A stretch of 32,998 nucleotides of DNA from Desulfobulbus propionicus (lineage in GTDB: Bacteria; Desulfobacterota; Dissulfuribacteria; Dissulfuribacterales; DYOW01), in NCBI GenBank assembly GCA_020720325.1, contig DYOW01000020.1, forward strand, positions 1 through 32,998, written 5' to 3'. Below, one piece after another: positions 16,456 through 28,874 of the stretch (positions within the stretch are counted from its first letter, which is position 1; each line of letters starts with the position of its first letter). A model generated the notes under the pieces. It was not told the origin of the DNA, did not search any database, and saw nothing but the letters and a program-made list of their open reading frames with translations. Both the position numbers and the translations under genes were made by a program.

Positions 16456-16740
16456 TTGCAGATAAAAAATATTATCTGGTTGATTGACATTGTTGAAAAA
16501 ATAAAAATTAAACATTCTGTATCACAAATTGAGGTTATAGAAATATTAGAAAATAAACCAAAATTCAGGTTTGTTGAAAAAGGTTTCAGAAAAAATGAAA
16601 ATGTTTACTGTGCGTTAGGTAAAACAAATTCAGGACGATATTTAATTATTTTTTTTATTTATAAATTAAATTGTAATGCAATAATAATTTTTGCAAGAGA
16701 TATGACAAAATCAGAAAGGCATAAATATGAAAAAAAATAA
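16456..16740 (+). CDS. BrnT-like type II toxin
   Basis: TTG start; IVEKIKIKHSVSQIEVIEIL...YCALGKTNSGRYLIIFFIYKLNCNAIIIFARDMTKSERHKYEKK resembles BrnT C-terminal ARxMTxxERxxY. Confidence 0.75.
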   Translation: MQIKNIIWLIDIVEKIKIKHSVSQIEVIEILENKPKFRFVEKGFRKNENVYCALGKTNSGRYLIIFFIYKLNCNAIIIFARDMTKSERHKYEKK

Positions 16741-16990
16741 AACTACAATCTCTAAAAGCAAGTCTTATAAAGAAATCGGTGAGTTCTGGGATACTCATGA
16801 CCTCTCTCATTACTGGGAAAAAACAGAGGTTACAAACTTTGATGTTAACATTAAATCACAACAAAAATATTTTCCTATTGATGCCAATCTTACTAAAAAA
16901 ATAAAAAAATTAGCAAAAAAAAGGGGAGTAAAAACAACAACACTGATAAATTTATTATTACAGGAAAAAATTTCTGAAAATGTAATGTAA
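16727..16990 (+). CDS. BrnA/CopG-like antitoxin
   Basis: Overlaps toxin ORF by 14 nt; FWDTHDLSHYWEKTEVTNFDVNIKSQQKYFPIDANLTKKIKKLAKKRGVKTTTLINLLLQEKI (ribbon-helix-helix-type C-terminus). Confidence 0.78.
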   Translation: MKKNKTTISKSKSYKEIGEFWDTHDLSHYWEKTEVTNFDVNIKSQQKYFPIDANLTKKIKKLAKKRGVKTTTLINLLLQEKISENVM

Positions 16991-17040: not shown

Positions 17041-19806
17041 ATGTCAATAAAATCATTATCTAATCTTTTTTCTCCAAAAAATATCGCCATTCTTGGCTCT
17101 GATTTCAAAGTGGGAACCGCAGGAAGAGTGCTTCTTAATAATTTAATCCAGGACAACTATGAAGGGGCAATATATCCTGTATTTTCAGAAAAACCCGCTG
17201 TTCTGGGGATTCCTGCCTTTAAAAATCCCGAAGACCTGCCGGATGACATCCAGCTTGCAGTCCTTGCAGGAGAACCTGAAAAATATTTGCAACATCTGGA
17301 TGCCTGCAAGAAAAAAAAGATAAAATCTATCCTTCTTTTTGGATATGATTTCAGACACAGAATAAAAGAACCCGACAAACTGCTTGCTGAAATAAAAAAG
17401 ATATGCAATGAAAATAACATAAGATGTCTGGGTCCCAATTCATTTGGTTTTATCCGCCCAAAACACAATCTTAATGTAAGCACCATAAAACAGGGATTAC
17501 AGCCCGGAAACCTTGCTTTCATCACCCAGAGCGCCACCCTTGGCTCAGCAATTCTCGACTATGCCCTTAAAAAAAATATAGGTTTCAGCCTGTTTATCTC
17601 CCTTGGAGCGCAGATAGACATTGATTGTTCCGAGCTTATTGATTTTCTTGCGACTGACCCGGATACAAAGGGAATAGTCCTTCACCTTGAATCAATAAAA
17701 AAAGGAAGGCAATTTATAGGGGCTGCCAGGTCTTTTGCAATGGTAAAACCCATTATAGCGGTAAAAGGTGGAAAATTTACCGAATCCTCCCAGGTTTCCC
17801 TTACCCATTCAGGCACAATGGCAGGAGAGGACAGGGTTTATGACGCTGTGTTTAAAAGGGCTGGAATTGTAAGAGTTGACCAGGTCTTTGAACTTTTTAA
17901 TGTTTCTGAGGCGCTTTCATGGCAAAAACCACCTGCAGGAAACAAACTTTTAATAGTAACAAATGCCGGAGGTCCCGCTGTTCTTGCCACTGATAAACTC
18001 ATAAGTTCAGGAGGCGCCCTTGCAAAATTGACAGATGACACCCTTGCCAAGTTAAATAAAGTCCTTCCTCCCTTCTGGTCTTCTGCAAATCCCATAGATG
18101 TGCTCTCAGACGCATCCCCCCAGCGAATTGCAAATGTCACTGAGATATGTCTTAATGCAAAGGAAACCAATGGAACGCTTGTAATCCTTACACCCCAGTT
18201 TGCCACCCAATCCATATTAACAGCCCAGGAAGTGGTGAATCTCTCAAAAAAATATCCGCAAAAAACCCTTCTTGCATGCTGGATGGGCGCTGGCGATATG
18301 GAAACAGCAAGAAAAATACTTGATGAAGGAAAAACGCCTAATTATGAAGCCCCTGAAGAGGCTGTCAAAAGCTTTGTCTTCATGCATAATTATAAGAAAA
18401 ATATCTCCCATCTCTATGAAACCCCCGCAAATATCCTTGCAGACCTTATCCCTGACTATGACGATGTGGAAAAAATCATAAATAACGCCGGGCTTGAAGG
18501 AAGAATAATCCTTAGCGAAAGGGAGTCAAAAGAAATTTTAAGCTGTTACGGTATTTTTTCACCTGAATTAAGACTGGCAAAAACCCCGGAACAAGCCCTT
18601 GCAATTGCAAAAGAAATAGGATTTCCTGTGGCAATGAAGATTGAATCCCCGCAGGTTACACATAAATTAAGCGTGAAAGGGATTTTTTTACATGTAAAAG
18701 AAGAAGAGGTTATCCAAACCTTTAATGCAATAAGCGAAAATCTGGCTAAATTTGCCCCTGACGCGCAATTTTCAGGGGTGACAGTTCAAAAAATGATTCT
18801 ATGGACAGGTTATGAGCTGACTATAGGCGCTAAAAAGGATACAACCTTTGGTTCGGTTATTCTGTTTGGCGCTGGCGGTGTGCTTGTTGAGGCAATAAAG
18901 GATTATGCAGTGGCGCTTCCACCCTTAAATCAAACCCTTGTAAAAAGACTCTTTGAAGAGACAAAAGTATATAATTTTCTTAAATACAGCGCCCGTTTCA
19001 CTCCTAATCTTGATAAACTTGAAGAGGTGATACTTAGATTTTCCCAGCTTATATGTGATTTTCCAATTATAAAAGAGGTGGATATCAATCCTTTCTATCT
19101 TGGGGAAAAAGACTACCTGTGTCTTGACGCAAGGATAATCCTTGAAGATGATGTAAAACATGGTTATAAAAAACCTCTTGGGGCATTTTGTCCTGCAAAT
19201 CTTGTCATCTGCCCCTATCCTATAAATTATATTGACAGCGCCATTGATAAAGACGGCAAGACCTTTATTGTAAGACCCATAAAACCCGAAGACGAGCCTC
19301 TTCTTTATGAACTTTTCAATACATTTTCCCCTGAGACAATAAGAATGAGATTTTTCCGTCCGCTTACTGAAATTTCCCACGAACAAATGGTTAAATACTG
19401 CCATCTTGATTATGACAGAGAAATTGCCCTTCTTGGCGCTTATCATGAAGACAATAAAGAAGTTGTCATGGGGGTTGGAAGGCTTATAATCTTTCCGGAT
19501 AATGAATATGCGGAATATGCGGTGGTTATTGGGGATCCGTGGCAGGGAAAAGGCATCGCGGGCATTCTTACTAAGAAATGCCTTAAAATTGCCATGAAAA
19601 AAGGACTAAAACATGTTGATATGGATGTGTTAAAAGAAAATTCCCCGATGAGAGGACTTGCGGTTAAATTTAATTTTATTGAGATAAAACAGGATGAAGA
19701 TGAAGGCATCATTAAATACAGGCTGTTTTTGGATAATACAGATATATTAAACCAAAATATTAAGACAAACGGCAAAAAGCCCAGAAAAGGTATTTCAAAA
19801 AAATAA
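17041..19806 (+). CDS. NDP-forming acyl-CoA synthetase fused to C-terminal GNAT acetyltransferase (Pat/PatZ-like architecture)
   Basis: CoA-binding/succinyl-CoA synthetase-like N-terminus (ISLGAQIDIDCSELIDFLATDPDTKGIVLHLE), LTHSGTMAGEDRVYDAVFKRAG, ATP-grasp segment (IGFPVAMKIESPQVTHKLSVKG), GNAT C-terminus (FIVRPIKPEDEPLLYELF...VVIGDPWQGKGIAGILTKKCL). Confidence 0.92.
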   Translation: MSIKSLSNLFSPKNIAILGSDFKVGTAGRVLLNNLIQDNYEGAIYPVFSEKPAVLGIPAFKNPEDLPDDIQLAVLAGEPEKYLQHLDACKKKKIKSILLFGYDFRHRIKEPDKLLAEIKKICNENNIRCLGPNSFGFIRPKHNLNVSTIKQGLQPGNLAFITQSATLGSAILDYALKKNIGFSLFISLGAQIDIDCSELIDFLATDPDTKGIVLHLESIKKGRQFIGAARSFAMVKPIIAVKGGKFTESSQVSLTHSGTMAGEDRVYDAVFKRAGIVRVDQVFELFNVSEALSWQKPPAGNKLLIVTNAGGPAVLATDKLISSGGALAKLTDDTLAKLNKVLPPFWSSANPIDVLSDASPQRIANVTEICLNAKETNGTLVILTPQFATQSILTAQEVVNLSKKYPQKTLLACWMGAGDMETARKILDEGKTPNYEAPEEAVKSFVFMHNYKKNISHLYETPANILADLIPDYDDVEKIINNAGLEGRIILSERESKEILSCYGIFSPELRLAKTPEQALAIAKEIGFPVAMKIESPQVTHKLSVKGIFLHVKEEEVIQTFNAISENLAKFAPDAQFSGVTVQKMILWTGYELTIGAKKDTTFGSVILFGAGGVLVEAIKDYAVALPPLNQTLVKRLFEETKVYNFLKYSARFTPNLDKLEEVILRFSQLICDFPIIKEVDINPFYLGEKDYLCLDARIILEDDVKHGYKKPLGAFCPANLVICPYPINYIDSAIDKDGKTFIVRPIKPEDEPLLYELFNTFSPETIRMRFFRPLTEISHEQMVKYCHLDYDREIALLGAYHEDNKEVVMGVGRLIIFPDNEYAEYAVVIGDPWQGKGIAGILTKKCLKIAMKKGLKHVDMDVLKENSPMRGLAVKFNFIEIKQDEDEGIIKYRLFLDNTDILNQNIKTNGKKPRKGISKK

Positions 19807-20780
19807 TGTCTGACTTCTATAAAATAAATATAGTGACACACGATATCTACAGACTGCATGATACGAGCGGAGATAAATATCATCCTGAAAAGCCCGGGCG
19901 AATAACCTCTGTAGTTGAACATCTCAAAAAAGGGATGCTTTCCACAAACTTAAATTTTATTGAAGCCAATTGCCCTGAAAGGGAATGGATATTAAAGATA
20001 CATAATAACAATTATCTCCTGCGTTTTGAGGAGGCATGCCTTGCGGGAAAGGAATATCTTGCCCATCCTGACAACAGGATTTCATATAATTCCTTTGAGG
20101 CAGCCTTTTATTCCTGCGGTTCAGGCTTGACTTCAATAGATTATGTTGAAAAACAGACAGATGGAGTATTTTTCTGCCTTTCAAGACCACCGGGACATCA
20201 TTCTGAAACATCCCTTGCCCTTGGATTTTGTTTTATTAATAATGTTGCGGTTGCGGCAAAATACTGGCAGGAAAAATATAATAGAGAACGGATTTTTGTG
20301 CTTGATTTTGACGCCCATCACGGAAACGGCATTCAGGCAAGCTTTGAGGAAGATCCATCTGTATTTTATGCAAGCATCCATGAACATCCCACATTTAGTT
20401 TTCCCGGCACAGGTTATGCTGACGACAACGGAAGCGGAAAAGGCATTGGCGCGACATTAAATATTCCCTTAAAGCCTGGTTCAGGCGATAAGCAGGTTCT
20501 TGAAATAATGGATACAACTATTTATGATGCTTTGGAAAGGTTTAAGCCTGATGCGATCATTGTCGCGGCAGGATTTGACGCCCATATTGATGATGATATG
20601 TCAGGACTTGCCTTTTCAACAAGGCTTTATGGAGAAATCGGAATGAGGCTTTTTGTGATGGCAAAAAAATTCTGTGATGGTAGAATTATAAGCATATTGG
20701 AGGGCGGCTATAATATCAACGCGCTTTGTAACAGCATTGAGACATATCTGGCGGGTATATCTATTAAAACAGGAGAATAG
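19806..20780 (+). CDS. Histone deacetylase/AcuC-like family deacetylase
   Basis: CLSRPPGHHSETSLALGFCFINNVAVAA; VLDFDAHHGNGIQASFEEDPSVFYASIHEHPTFSFPGTG; IIVAAGFDAHIDDDMSGLAFST. TAATG overlap with upstream gene. Confidence 0.95.
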   Translation: MSDFYKINIVTHDIYRLHDTSGDKYHPEKPGRITSVVEHLKKGMLSTNLNFIEANCPEREWILKIHNNNYLLRFEEACLAGKEYLAHPDNRISYNSFEAAFYSCGSGLTSIDYVEKQTDGVFFCLSRPPGHHSETSLALGFCFINNVAVAAKYWQEKYNRERIFVLDFDAHHGNGIQASFEEDPSVFYASIHEHPTFSFPGTGYADDNGSGKGIGATLNIPLKPGSGDKQVLEIMDTTIYDALERFKPDAIIVAAGFDAHIDDDMSGLAFSTRLYGEIGMRLFVMAKKFCDGRIISILEGGYNINALCNSIETYLAGISIKTGE

Positions 20781-20784
20781 CAAT

Positions 20785-21426
20785 ATGTATATATCTGAAT
20801 ATATGACAAAAGACCCTTTAAAAATAAATCCTGACCTGACCATATCTCAGGCAAGAGAAATTTTGGATTCAAAACACTTCAGACATCTTCCTGTTGTTGA
20901 TGATAACGGGCGCCTTCTCGGTATCATAACAGACAGGGATATAAGGTCTGCCTATCCTTCCTCCCTTGCCCCGGATGAAGAAAGAAAAAGAACCCTTGAA
21001 CAGACAACAATAACCCCGGTAGGCTCAATAATGAGCAGGGTATTATCAACCCTTTCCCCTGATGCCACCCTTGATGACGCTCTTCTATTCTTCAGAAAAC
21101 ATATTGTCGGGGCAATTCCAATTACCGATAAGGAAAATAAACTTGTTGGAATTTTTTCAATAAGGGATATGATTAAAGCATACAGTAATATCTTTGGATT
21201 GGGTGAGAAAGGAAGCCAGTTAATTGCCGTTGAAGACGACCTTGACAAAAAGAATATAATGAGCCTTATTGTAAGGGTTTTGGAAAGCAATAATATATCT
21301 TTTACACGGATTATGCGCACAGGCAGCAGGATTTATATAAGGGCGCAATCCTATAATATAAAATCCATAAAGGCAGCGCTGGAATCAGAAGGACTTAATC
21401 TTATTGAAAGAAAGGTGGACGTATGA
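20785..21426 (+). CDS. CBS-pair protein with C-terminal ACT-like region (AcuB-like)
   Basis: ATG at 20785 preceded by aggagaatagcaat, preferred over ORF-track start 20737. Two CBS repeats (MTKDPLKINPDLTISQAREIL...; IMSRVLSTLSPDATLDDALLFF...) plus LIVRVLESNNISFTRIMRTGSRIYIRAQ ACT-like tail. Confidence 0.88.
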   Translation: MYISEYMTKDPLKINPDLTISQAREILDSKHFRHLPVVDDNGRLLGIITDRDIRSAYPSSLAPDEERKRTLEQTTITPVGSIMSRVLSTLSPDATLDDALLFFRKHIVGAIPITDKENKLVGIFSIRDMIKAYSNIFGLGEKGSQLIAVEDDLDKKNIMSLIVRVLESNNISFTRIMRTGSRIYIRAQSYNIKSIKAALESEGLNLIERKVDV

Positions 21427-23513
21427 AATACCTTCTATATCCTGAATCGGTTTGTGTCATAGGGGCATCAAGAAATCCCCAGAAACTCGGCTATGCAATA
21501 CTTAAAAATGTTATTGACAGCGGTTTTAAAGGGGATATCTTCCCCGTTAATCCATCTGGCGAGGAAATTCTGGGGTATAAATCCTTTCCTGATGTAAAAT
21601 CCATAAAAGACAGGGCGCATCTTGCAGTAATCACAATTCCTTCAAGGTTTGTGATTGAAACCATAAAAGAATGCGGTGAAAACGGCGTTAAAGCAATAGT
21701 TGTAATATCCGCAGGTTTCAGGGAAACAGGGCACAAAGGGTTAATGGCTGAGATGGAAATCGCAAGGCTTGCTGAAGAATATAATATGGATATTGTTGGG
21801 CCCAACTGTCTTGGTTTAATAAACACACATACCCCCGTAAATGCGTCATTTGCGGCTGGAATGCCATTAAAAGGCAATATTGCCTTTATGTCACAGTCAG
21901 GGGCATTATGCACTGCAGTTCTTGATATGTCCTTTAATCTTGGAATAGGATTTTCAACATTTGTTAGTCTTGGGAACAAGGCGCATATTAATGAAGTGGA
22001 TTTTCTCTCTGCCTTTGACAATGACCCAAACAGCAGCGTAGCGCTTGCATATCTTGAGGGTATCTCAAACGGCGGTCTTTTTATTAAAAAAGCAAGAGAC
22101 ATAAGCAAAAGAAAACCAATAGTTGCCATAAAATCAGGCACAACTGACGCTGGTTCAAGGGCTGTAAGCTCCCATACCGGCACCCTTGCAGGAAGCGAAA
22201 AGGCATATGAGGCTGCCTTTAAACAGGCTGGTGTCATAAGGGCAGGAACAGTATCAGACCTTTTTGACATATCCTGGGCTTTTTCCACCCAACCTTTGCC
22301 TACCACAGAGAGAATCGCAATAGTGACAAATGCAGGCGGACCTGGCATACTTGCGACAGATATGGCTGAAAGAAAAGGATTAAAGCTTGCATCCCTCACA
22401 TCCGAGACAATGGAAGAATTAGCAAAATCGCTTCCTTCTGCTGCAAGTGTGCTTAACCCTGTTGATGTCCTTGGAGACGCGCTCTCAGACAGATATAAAG
22501 TCGCAATAAAACTTGTCCTTGAAGACCCCAATGTGGGCGGTGTAATAGTCATACTAACTCCGCAGATAATGACTGAAATCGAAGAAACAGCAAATGTCAT
22601 TATTGAACTTTCAAAACAGTATAATAAACCCATTCTTACAAGTTTTATGGGTGATGCCACAACAGGCAAAGGGGTCGCCATACTTTCCCGAAACAAAATC
22701 CCCAATTATCCCATTCCCGAACGCGCTGTTTATGCCCTTAAGGAAATGGTGAATTACAGGCTCTGGCAGGATGTTCAGGACGAAGAAATTACAGAATTTG
22801 AATTTGATAATGAAAAAATAAATAATATCTTTCAAAAAGCCCTCTCCAAAGGAAGACTTACTCTTGGCGAAACAGACGCAAAACAGATAATGGAGGCAAT
22901 AGGCATGAAAGTCCCCCCTTCCAAACTCTGTTCGTCTGCAGATGAAGCGATTAAGTTTGCCGATGAGATTGGCTATCCTGTGGTTATGAAGATAGCCTCC
23001 CCTGACATACTTCATAAAACCGATGTTGGTGGAGTAAAACTTGATGTAAGAACTCCCGAAGATGTCAGAGACAGTTTTGACCTTATAACCATGAGGTCAA
23101 TGAGATATATGCCAAATGCCGAAATATGGGGTTGCAATGTGCAGAAACAACTTCCAAAGGCAAGGGAAATGATTATCGGAGTCAACAGAGATACTCAGTT
23201 TGGTCCCCTTGTTATGGCAGGACTTGGCGGCATATATGTTGAAGTATTAAAGGATGTCGCATTCAGAATAGCGCCTTTTTCAAGAAAAACAGCAAGGGAG
23301 ATGCTCTTTGAGATAAAAACAATTAATCTCATAAGAGGAGTAAGGGGACAGGCGCCCGGAGATATTAACGGCATTATTGACACCCTTATCAGGATATCAC
23401 AACTTGTCACAAGATTTCCAAATATTGTTGAGCTTGATATTAATCCCCTCTTTGTTTATGAAGAAGGCAAAGGTGTTGTGGGACTTGATATGAGACTTGC
23501 ATTAAAACCATAA
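21423..23513 (+). CDS. Acetate-CoA ligase (ADP-forming), fused alpha-beta type
   Basis: LYPESVCVIGASRNPQKLGYAILKN; SSHTGTLAGSEKAYEAAFKQAGVIRA; YPVVMKIASPDILHKTDVGGVKLDV; FGPLVMAGLGGIYVEVLKDVAFRIAP. ATGA overlap with CBS gene. Confidence 0.94.
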   Translation: MKYLLYPESVCVIGASRNPQKLGYAILKNVIDSGFKGDIFPVNPSGEEILGYKSFPDVKSIKDRAHLAVITIPSRFVIETIKECGENGVKAIVVISAGFRETGHKGLMAEMEIARLAEEYNMDIVGPNCLGLINTHTPVNASFAAGMPLKGNIAFMSQSGALCTAVLDMSFNLGIGFSTFVSLGNKAHINEVDFLSAFDNDPNSSVALAYLEGISNGGLFIKKARDISKRKPIVAIKSGTTDAGSRAVSSHTGTLAGSEKAYEAAFKQAGVIRAGTVSDLFDISWAFSTQPLPTTERIAIVTNAGGPGILATDMAERKGLKLASLTSETMEELAKSLPSAASVLNPVDVLGDALSDRYKVAIKLVLEDPNVGGVIVILTPQIMTEIEETANVIIELSKQYNKPILTSFMGDATTGKGVAILSRNKIPNYPIPERAVYALKEMVNYRLWQDVQDEEITEFEFDNEKINNIFQKALSKGRLTLGETDAKQIMEAIGMKVPPSKLCSSADEAIKFADEIGYPVVMKIASPDILHKTDVGGVKLDVRTPEDVRDSFDLITMRSMRYMPNAEIWGCNVQKQLPKAREMIIGVNRDTQFGPLVMAGLGGIYVEVLKDVAFRIAPFSRKTAREMLFEIKTINLIRGVRGQAPGDINGIIDTLIRISQLVTRFPNIVELDINPLFVYEEGKGVVGLDMRLALKP

Positions 23514-23527
23514 ATTAAGGAGGAAAA

Positions 23528-24592
23528 ATGATTCCCATATATATTACATCAACTCAGAATTTTTCAGGAAAAAGCGCTATTTGTGTTGGTCTTATCAAAA
23601 AGCTTCTGGCAAAAGGCTTAAAAACCGGATATATAAAACCTTTCAGCGCTCATGCAAAATATTTTAACGGCAAATTGATAGATGAAGACACTGTTTTTAT
23701 AAGAGATATATTTGAAATGCCCGAACCTGTTGAAAAACTCTGTCCTGTCATGCTTTCCGACAGGGTGGTTGAAGATATAGTAAAGACCGGCGAACACAAT
23801 TATAAGGAAGTAATTCTTAATGCCTTTAAGGACATATCTTCCAATAAAGATGTGATGATTATTGAAGGCGCATCAAATCAAAGGGAAGGCTGGCTTTTGG
23901 ATCTCTCACCTTTAAAGATAGTTAAAGAATTTGATGCAAAGGTATTCGCAATAGTACCATTTGAAAACAATCTGCAGTTTATGGATGATGTCCTCACACT
24001 AAAGGGAAAATTCGAAGACAGGCTTGTTGGAGTTATTCTTAACAGGATTCCAAAAATAAAGCTTAATACAGTTAATGAAAGTTTCAGACCATATATAGAA
24101 TCAAAGGGGATCCGCGTGCTTGGAGTATTTCCAAAAGAAGTTGTTTTGATGTCAGTAAGCGTTCAGGAAATACTGGAAGGTCTGGGAGGCGAAATTCTCT
24201 GCGCCAGAGAAAATATCAATGAACTTGTGGAGCATCTTATGATCGGGGCAATGAGCGTGGACAGCGCTCTGAGATATTTCAGAAGGCATTCCAACAAGGC
24301 GGTAATAACGGGTGGAGACAGACCGGATGTCCAGCTTGCAGCCCTTGAAACCTCTACAAAATGCCTTATCTTAACAGGAAATCTAAGACCAAATCCAATG
24401 ATTGTCGCAAAGGCAGAGGATATGGGCGTGCCTATTATACTCACCCAATACGATACATTAACAACTGTTGAGATAATCGAATCATTTTTCGGAAAGACCA
24501 GATTCCACCAGAAGAAAAAAATCATGGCCTTTGAAGAAATGATGGATAAAAATCTTGATTTTGATAGACTTTATTCAGTATTAATGATATAA
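23528..24592 (+). CDS. Phosphotransacetylase N-terminal-like protein (P-loop BioD-like domain + DRTGG domain), no PTA catalytic domain
   Basis: IYITSTQNFSGKSAICVGLIKKLLAKGLKTGYIKPF; DRTGG-like SVDSALRYFRRHSNKAVITGGDRPDVQLAALETSTKCLILTGNLRPNPMIVAKAEDMGVPIILTQYDTLTTVEII. RBS aggagg. Confidence 0.87.
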   Translation: MIPIYITSTQNFSGKSAICVGLIKKLLAKGLKTGYIKPFSAHAKYFNGKLIDEDTVFIRDIFEMPEPVEKLCPVMLSDRVVEDIVKTGEHNYKEVILNAFKDISSNKDVMIIEGASNQREGWLLDLSPLKIVKEFDAKVFAIVPFENNLQFMDDVLTLKGKFEDRLVGVILNRIPKIKLNTVNESFRPYIESKGIRVLGVFPKEVVLMSVSVQEILEGLGGEILCARENINELVEHLMIGAMSVDSALRYFRRHSNKAVITGGDRPDVQLAALETSTKCLILTGNLRPNPMIVAKAEDMGVPIILTQYDTLTTVEIIESFFGKTRFHQKKKIMAFEEMMDKNLDFDRLYSVLMI

Positions 24593-24621: not shown

Positions 24622-25101
24622 ATGGAAAAAGTTACTGTTCAGAAAGGAAAATTTATAATTAGTAATGATACAACGATAGAGATCGTTACAGAATTCCTTG
24701 GCGCATCTCTTGCTGTTATTATCTATGACAGGGTTGAAAAAATCGGAGGAATTTTAGTCTGTATGATTCCCAAAAGCCTCATGCTTGTTATGGGTAATGA
24801 TAAAAACGTAAGACATGGACTTAACACTGGTCTTCCTGCCCTTTTTAAGGGATTTATGCCAAATTCCAAAAAAGAAAATTTTGAAATTTATCTTGTGGGC
24901 GCAGGCTCTTTTCTAAGCTCTCCCCCACAGTTTGATATCGGAGACCAACTTTACAGAACTGCGACACATATCCTTACAAAAAATAAATTTGAGATAAAGG
25001 GTGAGCATATTAAATGGCAGATAAACAGATCTGCGCTTCTTAATATTGAATCAGGAGAAGTAAAAATAAGACTCACCGACGGTCAGGAGATCAAATTATG
25101 A
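24622..25101 (+). CDS. CheD-like protein lacking the canonical catalytic Cys and His
   Basis: TEFLGASLAVIIYDRVEKIGGILVCMIPKS compares with CheD LGSCVAV..DPVAKVGGxxHxMLP; tail INRSALLNIESGEVKIRLTDGQEIKL matches CheD RSVxxxxxTGxxxVRxxGGxE. Confidence 0.7.
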   Translation: MEKVTVQKGKFIISNDTTIEIVTEFLGASLAVIIYDRVEKIGGILVCMIPKSLMLVMGNDKNVRHGLNTGLPALFKGFMPNSKKENFEIYLVGAGSFLSSPPQFDIGDQLYRTATHILTKNKFEIKGEHIKWQINRSALLNIESGEVKIRLTDGQEIKL

Positions 25102-25964
25102 AAGGCGATACAGTAGTTATAGATACATCACTTGAGCATATATTTGAACATATAAACCAGCTTCCTGTTTTTCCAAAGGTTGTATTTAAGGCATTAAAGC
25201 TTCTTGACGACCCTGATGCAAATCTGAAAGAACTTGCGGACCTCATAAGATATGACCAGGGGTTAAACGCCAATTTTTTAAGACTTGCCAATTCAGCCCG
25301 TTTCGGACTTTCAAGGCAGGTGACACGTCTTGACATGGCCCTTGCCCTTCTTGGCATAGATCAGATAAAAGAAGTCCTTCTTGTCAGCGCCGCCAAACCA
25401 TATCTTGACAAACCTCTTCAGGGATATGGAATGTCAGGTTTTGAGCTCTGGACACATTCCCTTGCAATTACAGTGGTAAGCGAGGTTGTTAGCCGTAAAA
25501 TGGGAATACAGGATTCCACCACGCTTTTTACCGCTTGTCTGATGCATGACATTGGAAAAGTTGCAATGAATGTGCAAATAGGCCTTAAAAACAGTGAAAT
25601 ACTTCAACTTGTTCATCAGGAAAATGTTTCTTTCAATGAGGCTGAATGGAAGGTTGTTGGCGGGGATCACGCTGTTGTTGGCTCAGAGATTTTAAGACAA
25701 TGGGAATTTCCCTTTGAGATAGTGCGCGCTGTGAGAAACCATCATGACCCTGACCTTTACATACAGGACGAACTATCCCTCTGGCTGTCATCCTGCAACA
25801 CCATGACAACCCTTATGGGGCTTTCCTACGGACTTGATACCTTTATGTATAAAATACACCCTGATTTACCCAAAAAACTTGGTCTGACATACGACTTTCT
25901 CTTTGATGTGCTTCAGGATTCAGTGATTGAATTTGAAAAAACAAGAGACATGCTTTATTTATAA
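25098..25964 (+). CDS. HDOD domain protein
   Basis: LPVFPKVVFKALKLLDDPDANLKELADLIRYDQGLNANFLRLANSARFGLSRQVTRLDMALALLGIDQIKEVLL; CLMHDIGKVAMN. ATGA-type overlap with CheD-like gene. Confidence 0.93.
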   Translation: MKGDTVVIDTSLEHIFEHINQLPVFPKVVFKALKLLDDPDANLKELADLIRYDQGLNANFLRLANSARFGLSRQVTRLDMALALLGIDQIKEVLLVSAAKPYLDKPLQGYGMSGFELWTHSLAITVVSEVVSRKMGIQDSTTLFTACLMHDIGKVAMNVQIGLKNSEILQLVHQENVSFNEAEWKVVGGDHAVVGSEILRQWEFPFEIVRAVRNHHDPDLYIQDELSLWLSSCNTMTTLMGLSYGLDTFMYKIHPDLPKKLGLTYDFLFDVLQDSVIEFEKTRDMLYL

Positions 25965-27504: not shown

Positions 27505-28874
27505 ATGTCCTGGCAATTTTTTTTTCTTCCTACATAGAAAAATGGAATAAGTGGAAATCAAAGTCCGTTAAAAGATTTATTTTCGGCTCTGCCTTTATTG
27601 TTTCTCTCCTAACAGGAATTGTCTATGTCTTTCACGGCGTTAAGGATATTTACTCAGCTTCAATATTCGGAACAACCGATATCTTTGAAAGCTTTATCCT
27701 TGCCTACACCATTCCTTCATTTATAATAAATCTCATGGCAGGTTCAATAGCTTCAGCTTTTATTCCTGTTTATCTTGATGTAAAAGCAAAAACAGACGAT
27801 GTGTCTGCCTCAAAGCTTTTTAACACCTTTTTAATTTCAGTTCTTTTAATGCTCATAATCTTAACTGTGCCGCTCCATTTTGGGGGAAATTACTTTATTA
27901 AATTTATAGCCGGTTCTTACACGCCGGAAAAAATTATTAAAACCATTGAAATTTACAATTTTCTCCTTATATTAATAGTGTTACAGGTTCTGATTAATCT
28001 GTTCTCAGCCCTTCTAAATGCTTCAAACCGTTTTATCCTTAGCTCAATAACACCCTTAATTTCTTCAATATTAACTATTTTGCTTCTCTTTTTTGCAGGT
28101 AAATTCCTCAATATTTACGCTGTGATTTACGGGCTTATTTTGGGAAGCATTGTCCAGCTAATTCTTCTTATAAACAGGGCATATAAAAAAAATATCTTTA
28201 GCCTGGAACCTCCTTCATTTCACCCGGGCCTTTTTCGTATATGGAAACATTATCTACCTCTTCTCGCAGGCTCTTTTTTTGTCTGTGGAACAATTACCGT
28301 GGATCAGGTAATGGCAGCAACCCTTCCAGCCAAAAGCCTTGCAGCGTTAACGTACGGAGACAGGATTGTATCCGCTATTACAACGCTTCTTATGACAGGG
28401 CTTGGCACAGTTATTCTTCCTGTGTTTTCAAGGCTTATTGCGGCAAATGAAATAGATAGCTTAAGAAAAACCCTATGGTTTTATGTAAAACTAAGCATTC
28501 TTGCAGGGGCTTTGATTTCTGTTTTTTTTATTTTTTTCTCTGAAAATATTGTTAAAATATTCTGGGAAAGGGGCGCATTTACCCAGGAAGACACTATTAT
28601 TGTGTCAAAAATACAATGGATTTACGGGCTTAAAATACCCTTTGTGCTTGCAATAATATTGATTGTCAGGACTATTTCAGCGCTTGGGTTTAATCATTAC
28701 ATAACAGGCATTGCCGTAATAAATATGTGCTCTAATATTATTTTAAACTATATCTTAATGAAATACTTTGATGCCGCCGGAATAGCTGCTTCAACGGTGA
28801 TTGTACATACTATTTCATTTATTCTGGTATTCTTAAGCATAAAAAAAATATTGTTAACGAGAAAAAATCTTTGA
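27505..28874 (+). CDS. murJ: MurJ/MviN-like lipid II flippase; N-terminus out of frame at a T9 tract
   Basis: Same-frame coding extends upstream of ORF-track start 27735: KRFIFGSAFIVSLLTGIVYVFHGVKDIYSASIFGTTDIFESFILAYTIPSFIINLMAGSIASAFIPVYLD (MurJ TM1-2), but no in-frame ATG/GTG/TTG there. ATG 27505 is in the +1-offset frame and ends at TAG 27535; a -1 shift in T9 (27517-27525) joins them. Confidence 0.75.

Follow-up and report, generated by a model that had tools for sequence, protein, structure and literature searches.

A candidate lysine acetylation operon that includes an ADP-forming acetyl-CoA synthetase in Dissulfuribacterales

When the genes of a putative lysine acetyltransferase, a deacetylase and an AcuB-like regulator lie directly upstream of an ADP-forming acetate-CoA ligase, which enzyme of acetate metabolism do they control? 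The question is raised by a gene run in the window, by which we mean the whole 32,998-nucleotide stretch of DNA analysed here. The first-pass annotation had suggested that the three regulators act on the ADP-forming enzyme instead of AMP-forming acetyl-CoA synthetase (Acs). The run comprises the following features:

17041–19806, + strand: PatF, NDP-forming acyl-CoA synthetase with a C-terminal GNAT fusion, 921 aa (ORF, Pfam)
19806–20780, + strand: HDAC, Zn-dependent deacetylase of class-II type, the proposed eraser, 324 aa (ORF, Pfam Hist_deacetyl)
20785–21426, + strand: AcuB-like sensor with a pair of CBS domains followed by an ACT-like domain at the C-terminus, 213 aa from the ATG (ORF, Pfam)
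21423–23513, + strand: ACD, intact single-chain ADP-forming acetate/acyl-CoA synthetase, 696 aa (ORF, Pfam)
23528–24592, + strand: free-standing Pta-N-like protein (AAA_26 and DRTGG), homologous to the regulatory N-terminal portion of phosphotransacetylase
24622–25964: CheD-like and HDOD genes, overlapping each other, at the end of this run

The order of the first four genes and all three of their junctions, as initially annotated, were borne out by ORF coordinates, the DNA and Pfam. PatF and HDAC share a TAATG overlap (19804–19808, read from the DNA and ORF coordinates); HDAC and the AcuB-like gene are joined by TAG, 4 nt and ATG (20778–20787, read from the DNA); and the AcuB-like gene and ACD overlap in ATGA (21423–21426, also read from the DNA). 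The single transcript proposed at the same time is supported: PatF, HDAC, the AcuB-like gene and ACD are likely transcribed as one unit. The Pta-N-like gene starts 14 nt downstream of ACD and is followed, with short gaps, by CheD, HDOD and TolC-like genes (the last called by eye). On balance, we favor reading the four genes as one operon of acetate metabolism, with activities predicted from sequence.

No CheD–HDOD pair was seen beside ACD in relatives. At 16456–16990, on the same strand as PatF and ending 50 nt upstream of it, a BrnT-like small ORF (called by eye) is followed by a CopG/BrnA-type antitoxin (PF12441); these are probably a toxin-antitoxin pair. In a MurJ-like ORF at 27735–28874 the model match begins only at position 57; the gene may be truncated or may begin further upstream.

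Predicted proteins and the acetate enzymes of the host

PatF contains CoA_binding_2, Succ_CoA_lig, Ligase_CoA_2 and ATP-grasp_5 domains together with Acetyltransf_1. It scores 403 bits against TIGR02717 (acetate-CoA ligase alpha), under the cut-off of 567, and its best PDB match, over the whole length, is 9it0, a 'Protein acetyltransferase' (1e-144). We propose that it is a type I, PatZ-like lysine acetyltransferase. The ligase domains of PatZ-type GNATs are described as inactive, with the catalytic histidine absent (PMC8556138), and the solved acetyltransferase aligns an N at that place. The window PatF keeps both the alpha-His (H256) and the beta-His (H541) of active ACDs, as well as their Glu, ATP-grasp Lys and Asp/Asn positions. 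Both histidines are also present in the PatFs of G010, G004, G014, G007, G040 and G051, and G003 has the alpha-histidine only. One or both are gone in G006, G012 and the BioD-linked sets of family f10, where the losses (in most f10 genomes, G006 and G012) are to R, N, S or a deletion. The ligase domain thus appears to be in varying states of decay across the family, and that of the window PatF could still be working.

The annotated 'AcuC-like' deacetylase is, as predicted from its residues, a complete HDAC-fold enzyme: it has the His-His dyad, the Asp/His/Asp zinc ligands and the catalytic Tyr of the superfamily, and this set (H131–H132, D169, H171, D258, Y302) is invariant in 12 orthologues. 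Its best PDB matches are HDAC6, HDAH, HDAC4 and HDAC10, which we take to be class II. Since AcuC of Bacillus is a class I HDAC (PMC13039410, PMC8556138), the name fits the role of the protein and not its lineage. A second HDAC, on contig C76 of the same genome, is also of class-II type, which ruled it out as a class I AcuC that takes over the role. A search of the window genome assembly found no sirtuin gene, so that, of the known types of lysine deacetylase, only the two HDACs were found there. Elsewhere, a sirtuin gene (L090:8030–8782) lies near an HDAC–AcuB pair, placing two kinds of deacetylase in one neighborhood.

By sequence and by its model, the CBS2+ACT protein is a good full-length AcuB homologue, as had been annotated. 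A CBS-family profile matches Geobacillus AcuB over almost its entire length (9e-34). The AlphaFold2 model (pLDDT 93) has the ACT topology beta1-alpha1-beta2-beta3-alpha2 described for BsAcuB (PMC13121692), and the top 19 structures that it matches in the PDB are all AcuB chains or the Thermus homologue (TM 0.73–0.80). R33, H34 and R51 correspond in identity and number to residues of the BsAcuB nucleotide site (PMC13121692), and the near family shows no variation at any of them; R33 and H34 are highly conserved among 200 AcuBs (PMC13039410). The ACT domain of AcuB contacts AcuC through the Met within RVQTM (PMC13039410), and the counterpart here, R-[AV]-[QT]-[ST]-[YFM] as assigned by reading the alignment, is largely retained. 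Two papers from 2026 disagree on the ligand: AMP and not Ap4A makes AcuB inhibit AcuC in one (PMC13121692), and Ap4A strengthens the inhibition in the other (PMC13039410).

The call of an intact ADP-forming acetate-CoA ligase also held. ACD has the entire ACD domain set in Pfam; its alpha and beta parts are complete, each with its histidine (alpha-His H251, beta-His H531). It passes the TIGR02717 cut-off of 567 with 576 bits, though the nearest relative with a solved structure is a 4-hydroxybutyrate-CoA ligase (8wzu). In a tree from a quick search without bootstrap, clade I ACDs, including that of the window, pair with a Pta-N-like gene (support 99), and clade II ACDs pair with the transferase/GNAT fusion described below (support 100); in both clades some members lie downstream of HDAC–AcuB and some elsewhere. 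The Pta-N-like gene adjoins nearly every clade I ACD examined, in genomes without Pta, and its product may regulate ACD.

The assembly of the window genome measures 2.44 Mb, with a completeness of 97.6%. Its order, Dissulfuribacterales, in which Seep-SRB2 has been placed, has chemolithoautotrophs tied to sulfur disproportionation (PMC10553843), and the genome carries the CdhC gene of the acetyl-CoA pathway. Neither acetate kinase (Ack) nor a phosphotransacetylase (Pta) catalytic domain was found in the assembly, so ACD is probably the main ATP-yielding acetate route of this genome. Across 31 genomes of the order ACD replaces Ack, the two being mutually exclusive: Ack is present in 0/9 genomes with clade I ACD and in 15/22 without it (p = 8e-4, a value that ignores relatedness).

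A check for an AMP-forming acs elsewhere in the genome, suggested with the first annotation, found one canonical Acs, on contig C193, with a PKTRSGK acetylation site. The P[KQ]TRSGK motif is kept in 33/33 Acs proteins examined. Acs is present in 14/16 HDAC-bearing relatives in the order outside family f2; the two exceptions, G007 (no Acs at threshold) and G042 (only a distant Acs, 47%), are both less than 90% complete. The in-frame stop in the second Acs of many relatives proved to be an artefact: the gene simply terminates there, after DTSTLED, as it normally does, and 5/5 of these second copies examined retain the PKTRSGK site.

Conservation of the set and its neighbors

Co-directional HDAC–AcuB–ACD genes were counted automatically at 22 loci, in which two pairs represent the same locus, giving 20 distinct loci; L055 and L070 are further examples found by eye. 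With at least 20 distinct loci the arrangement is real and more than chance, and we rejected a unique or chance origin; uniqueness to this genome was the first outcome that the earlier annotation had named as telling against its proposal. The ACDs at these loci belong to two separate clades, and the writer is either PatF upstream or the transferase/GNAT downstream. The eraser and sensor may have been linked to ACD repeatedly, or once long ago with later losses; both fit.

Within the order of the window the core is PatF–HDAC–AcuB. ACD follows it in the window, G003, G006 and G010, BioD follows it in many f10 genomes, and in other families BioD, a tetrapyrrole methylase or other genes stand in place of ACD. 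In L040, L041, L044 and L045 the set is followed by BioD (dethiobiotin synthetase-like) and a long protein of ~1050 aa. All four genomes of the order that hold HDAC and clade I ACD have the two adjacent. In the f2 genomes checked, HDAC–AcuB and ACD are at separate places.

A scan of named genomes found that many Desulfobulbales and relatives have HDAC–AcuB–ACD followed by a 625-aa fusion of an acetyl-CoA hydrolase/transferase with a GNAT, which by its sequence would be a second acetyltransferase fused to a metabolic enzyme, found across Desulfobulbales. ACD lies directly upstream of this gene at L061:1942–5948, L072:11678–15719 and L075:11999–16002. The deposited strain Desulfobulbus alkaliphilus DSM 24258 also carries HDAC–AcuB–ACD–GNAT (L076). 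At L075:7721–16002 the one-strand order is acs–HDAC–acuB–ACD–(transferase/GNAT), with acs directly upstream of HDAC, so that both acetate-activating enzymes and the regulators share one locus. Desulfobacterales have HDAC–AcuB without ACD, some with a sirtuin nearby.

Co-occurrence was counted among 31 genomes of the order with a close Acs; these are draft genomes, in which an absence can be a gap, and E-value thresholds were chosen by the analyst. The set of writer, eraser and sensor is conserved. PatF is present in 14/15 genomes with HDAC and 4/16 without it (p = 1.7e-4, ignoring relatedness), and the sole HDAC genome without PatF, G015, carries the other writer. The two writers are alternatives: within the order they were not seen together in any genome, and almost all HDAC genomes carry one or the other. 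Phylogenetic pairing of HDAC with PatF gave 3.4 same and 0 opposite (p ~0.125), a result whose direction holds with too few pairs for significance. HDAC and clade I ACD are independent of each other (4/15 with HDAC, 5/16 without; p = 1.0). The set occurs without clade I ACD in 11/15 genomes and clade I ACD without HDAC in 5/9, and on this distribution ACD was rejected as an obligate partner of the set.

Candidate targets of the set

The canonical Acs with its acetylatable lysine in the same genome, the independent distribution of set and ACD, and the lack of a recognizable site in ACD leave the 'instead' of the original proposal unjustified. We lean towards a different reading, and hold it with modest confidence: the target of the set is Acs, and the opposing, ATP-yielding arm is encoded in the same operon as the set. 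PatF would acetylate lysines from acetyl-CoA and HDAC would strip the acetyl groups. The AcuB-like protein would bind adenine nucleotides at its CBS domains and inhibit HDAC through its ACT domain, so that deacetylation would track the energy state of the cell. As in Bacillus and enterobacteria, the main target would be an AMP-forming Acs, here the one on contig C193, modified at the lysine of PKTRSGK. ACD, made from the same transcript, would convert acetyl-CoA to acetate with ATP yield in place of Pta–Ack, and co-expression would let the cell prevent a futile cycle by switching off the ATP-consuming Acs whenever ACD is running. This reading draws on the AcuB identity (PDB matches, model, R33/H34/R51), the invariant catalytic set of HDAC in a genome without a sirtuin match, the co-occurrence of writer and eraser (14/15 versus 4/16), the acetylation site in the genome's Acs and in all 33 examined, the Acs beside HDAC–AcuB–ACD–GNAT in L075, and the exclusion of Ack by clade I ACD (0/9 versus 15/22). 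Against it, Acs is unlinked to the set in the window genome, several genomes have Acs without the set, and phylogenetic pairing leaves the associations short of significance. Because Acs is near-universal in the order, its presence with the set is itself little evidence, and the substrates of a class-II HDAC could be other proteins or small molecules.

A rival reading is plain shared expression, in which ACD merely sits in an acetate operon and HDAC acts on many proteins or a small acetylated molecule. The BioD, tetrapyrrole methylase and other genes that follow the set in other families would suit this explanation, as would the polyamine deacetylases among the class-II relatives (PDB matches) and the multiple substrates of Bacillus AcuC (PMC13039410); that HDAC is consistently accompanied by an AcuB homologue and a protein-acetyltransferase-like fusion argues instead for a dedicated protein-acetylation circuit, and we find shared expression alone unlikely. 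Somewhat unlikely, too, is that ACD itself is a substrate, alone or with Acs, reversible acetylation gating ATP-yielding acetate formation or uptake. The adjacency of HDAC–AcuB and ACD persists at the 20 or more loci, with two well-separated ACD clades and two writers, and in all four genomes of the order that have both genes, which keeps direct control within reach. Yet genomes keep or lose the set without regard to ACD (4/15 versus 5/16, p = 1.0), and HDAC–AcuB and ACD lie apart in the f2 genomes checked. In the ACD sequence comparison no lysine set the HDAC-linked ACDs apart, and PX4GK was absent from every ACD compared, so we rejected both as marks of regulated ACDs. The open-access literature searched yielded no account of an ACD regulated by acetylation, and nothing on lysine acylation of Acs in Syntrophus. 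The fuller claim, that AcuB-gated reversible acetylation directly controls ACD and that eraser and sensor joined ACD genes more than once in Desulfobacterota, we regard as speculative. It is also doubtful that PatF is a working acyl-CoA synthetase with a coupled GNAT, a 'writer' that senses flux through its own ligase domain. Such a role would account for the catalytic positions retained in contrast to PatZ-type proteins (PMC8556138) and for the histidines of PatF in G004, a genome with no ACD, Ack or Pta match; the loss of the histidines in other family members implies that ligase activity is not generally needed, and the score is far under the ACD model cut-off.

Comparison with known systems

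AcuB had no worked-out role until 2026, and that work concerns Bacilli alone. The loci described here pair an AcuB homologue with another deacetylase class and two fused writers across Desulfobacterota, and place an AcuB-type set beside an ADP-forming enzyme that replaces Pta–Ack. It becomes testable whether, in anaerobes that metabolise sulfur or sulfate, protein acetylation determines if acetate metabolism consumes or yields ATP; we found no description of such a switch in the open-access literature.

Like Bacillus acuABC–acsA, the window groups genes for an acetyltransferase, a Zn deacetylase and a CBS/ACT regulator in an acetate context, and its AcuB homologue is full length with the nucleotide residues. 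The Bacillus writer, AcuA, is a stand-alone GNAT and its deacetylase, AcuC, is class I, whereas the window has a 921-aa NDP-ligase/GNAT fusion and a class-II-type HDAC. In Bacillus acsA adjoins the operon; in the window ACD does, with Acs on contig C193, and the order writer–eraser–sensor–ligase is unlike that of Bacillus. PatZ/Pat of E. coli and Salmonella share with PatF an N-terminal NDP-forming ligase and a C-terminal GNAT in one chain, but the PatZ ligase lacks the catalytic histidine and the window PatF retains the alpha-histidine. The partner of enterobacterial PatZ is the sirtuin CobB; PatF, unlike PatZ, is adjoined by HDAC and AcuB-homologue genes. Single-chain ADP-forming acyl-CoA synthetases such as 8wzu have all the domains and both histidines found in the window ACD, which differs from them in sharing an operon with lysine acetylation enzymes. 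The HDAC–AcuB–ACD–(transferase/GNAT) loci of Desulfobulbales have the same order of eraser, sensor and ACD as the window, but their writer is the transferase/GNAT, downstream, and their ACD comes from the other clade.
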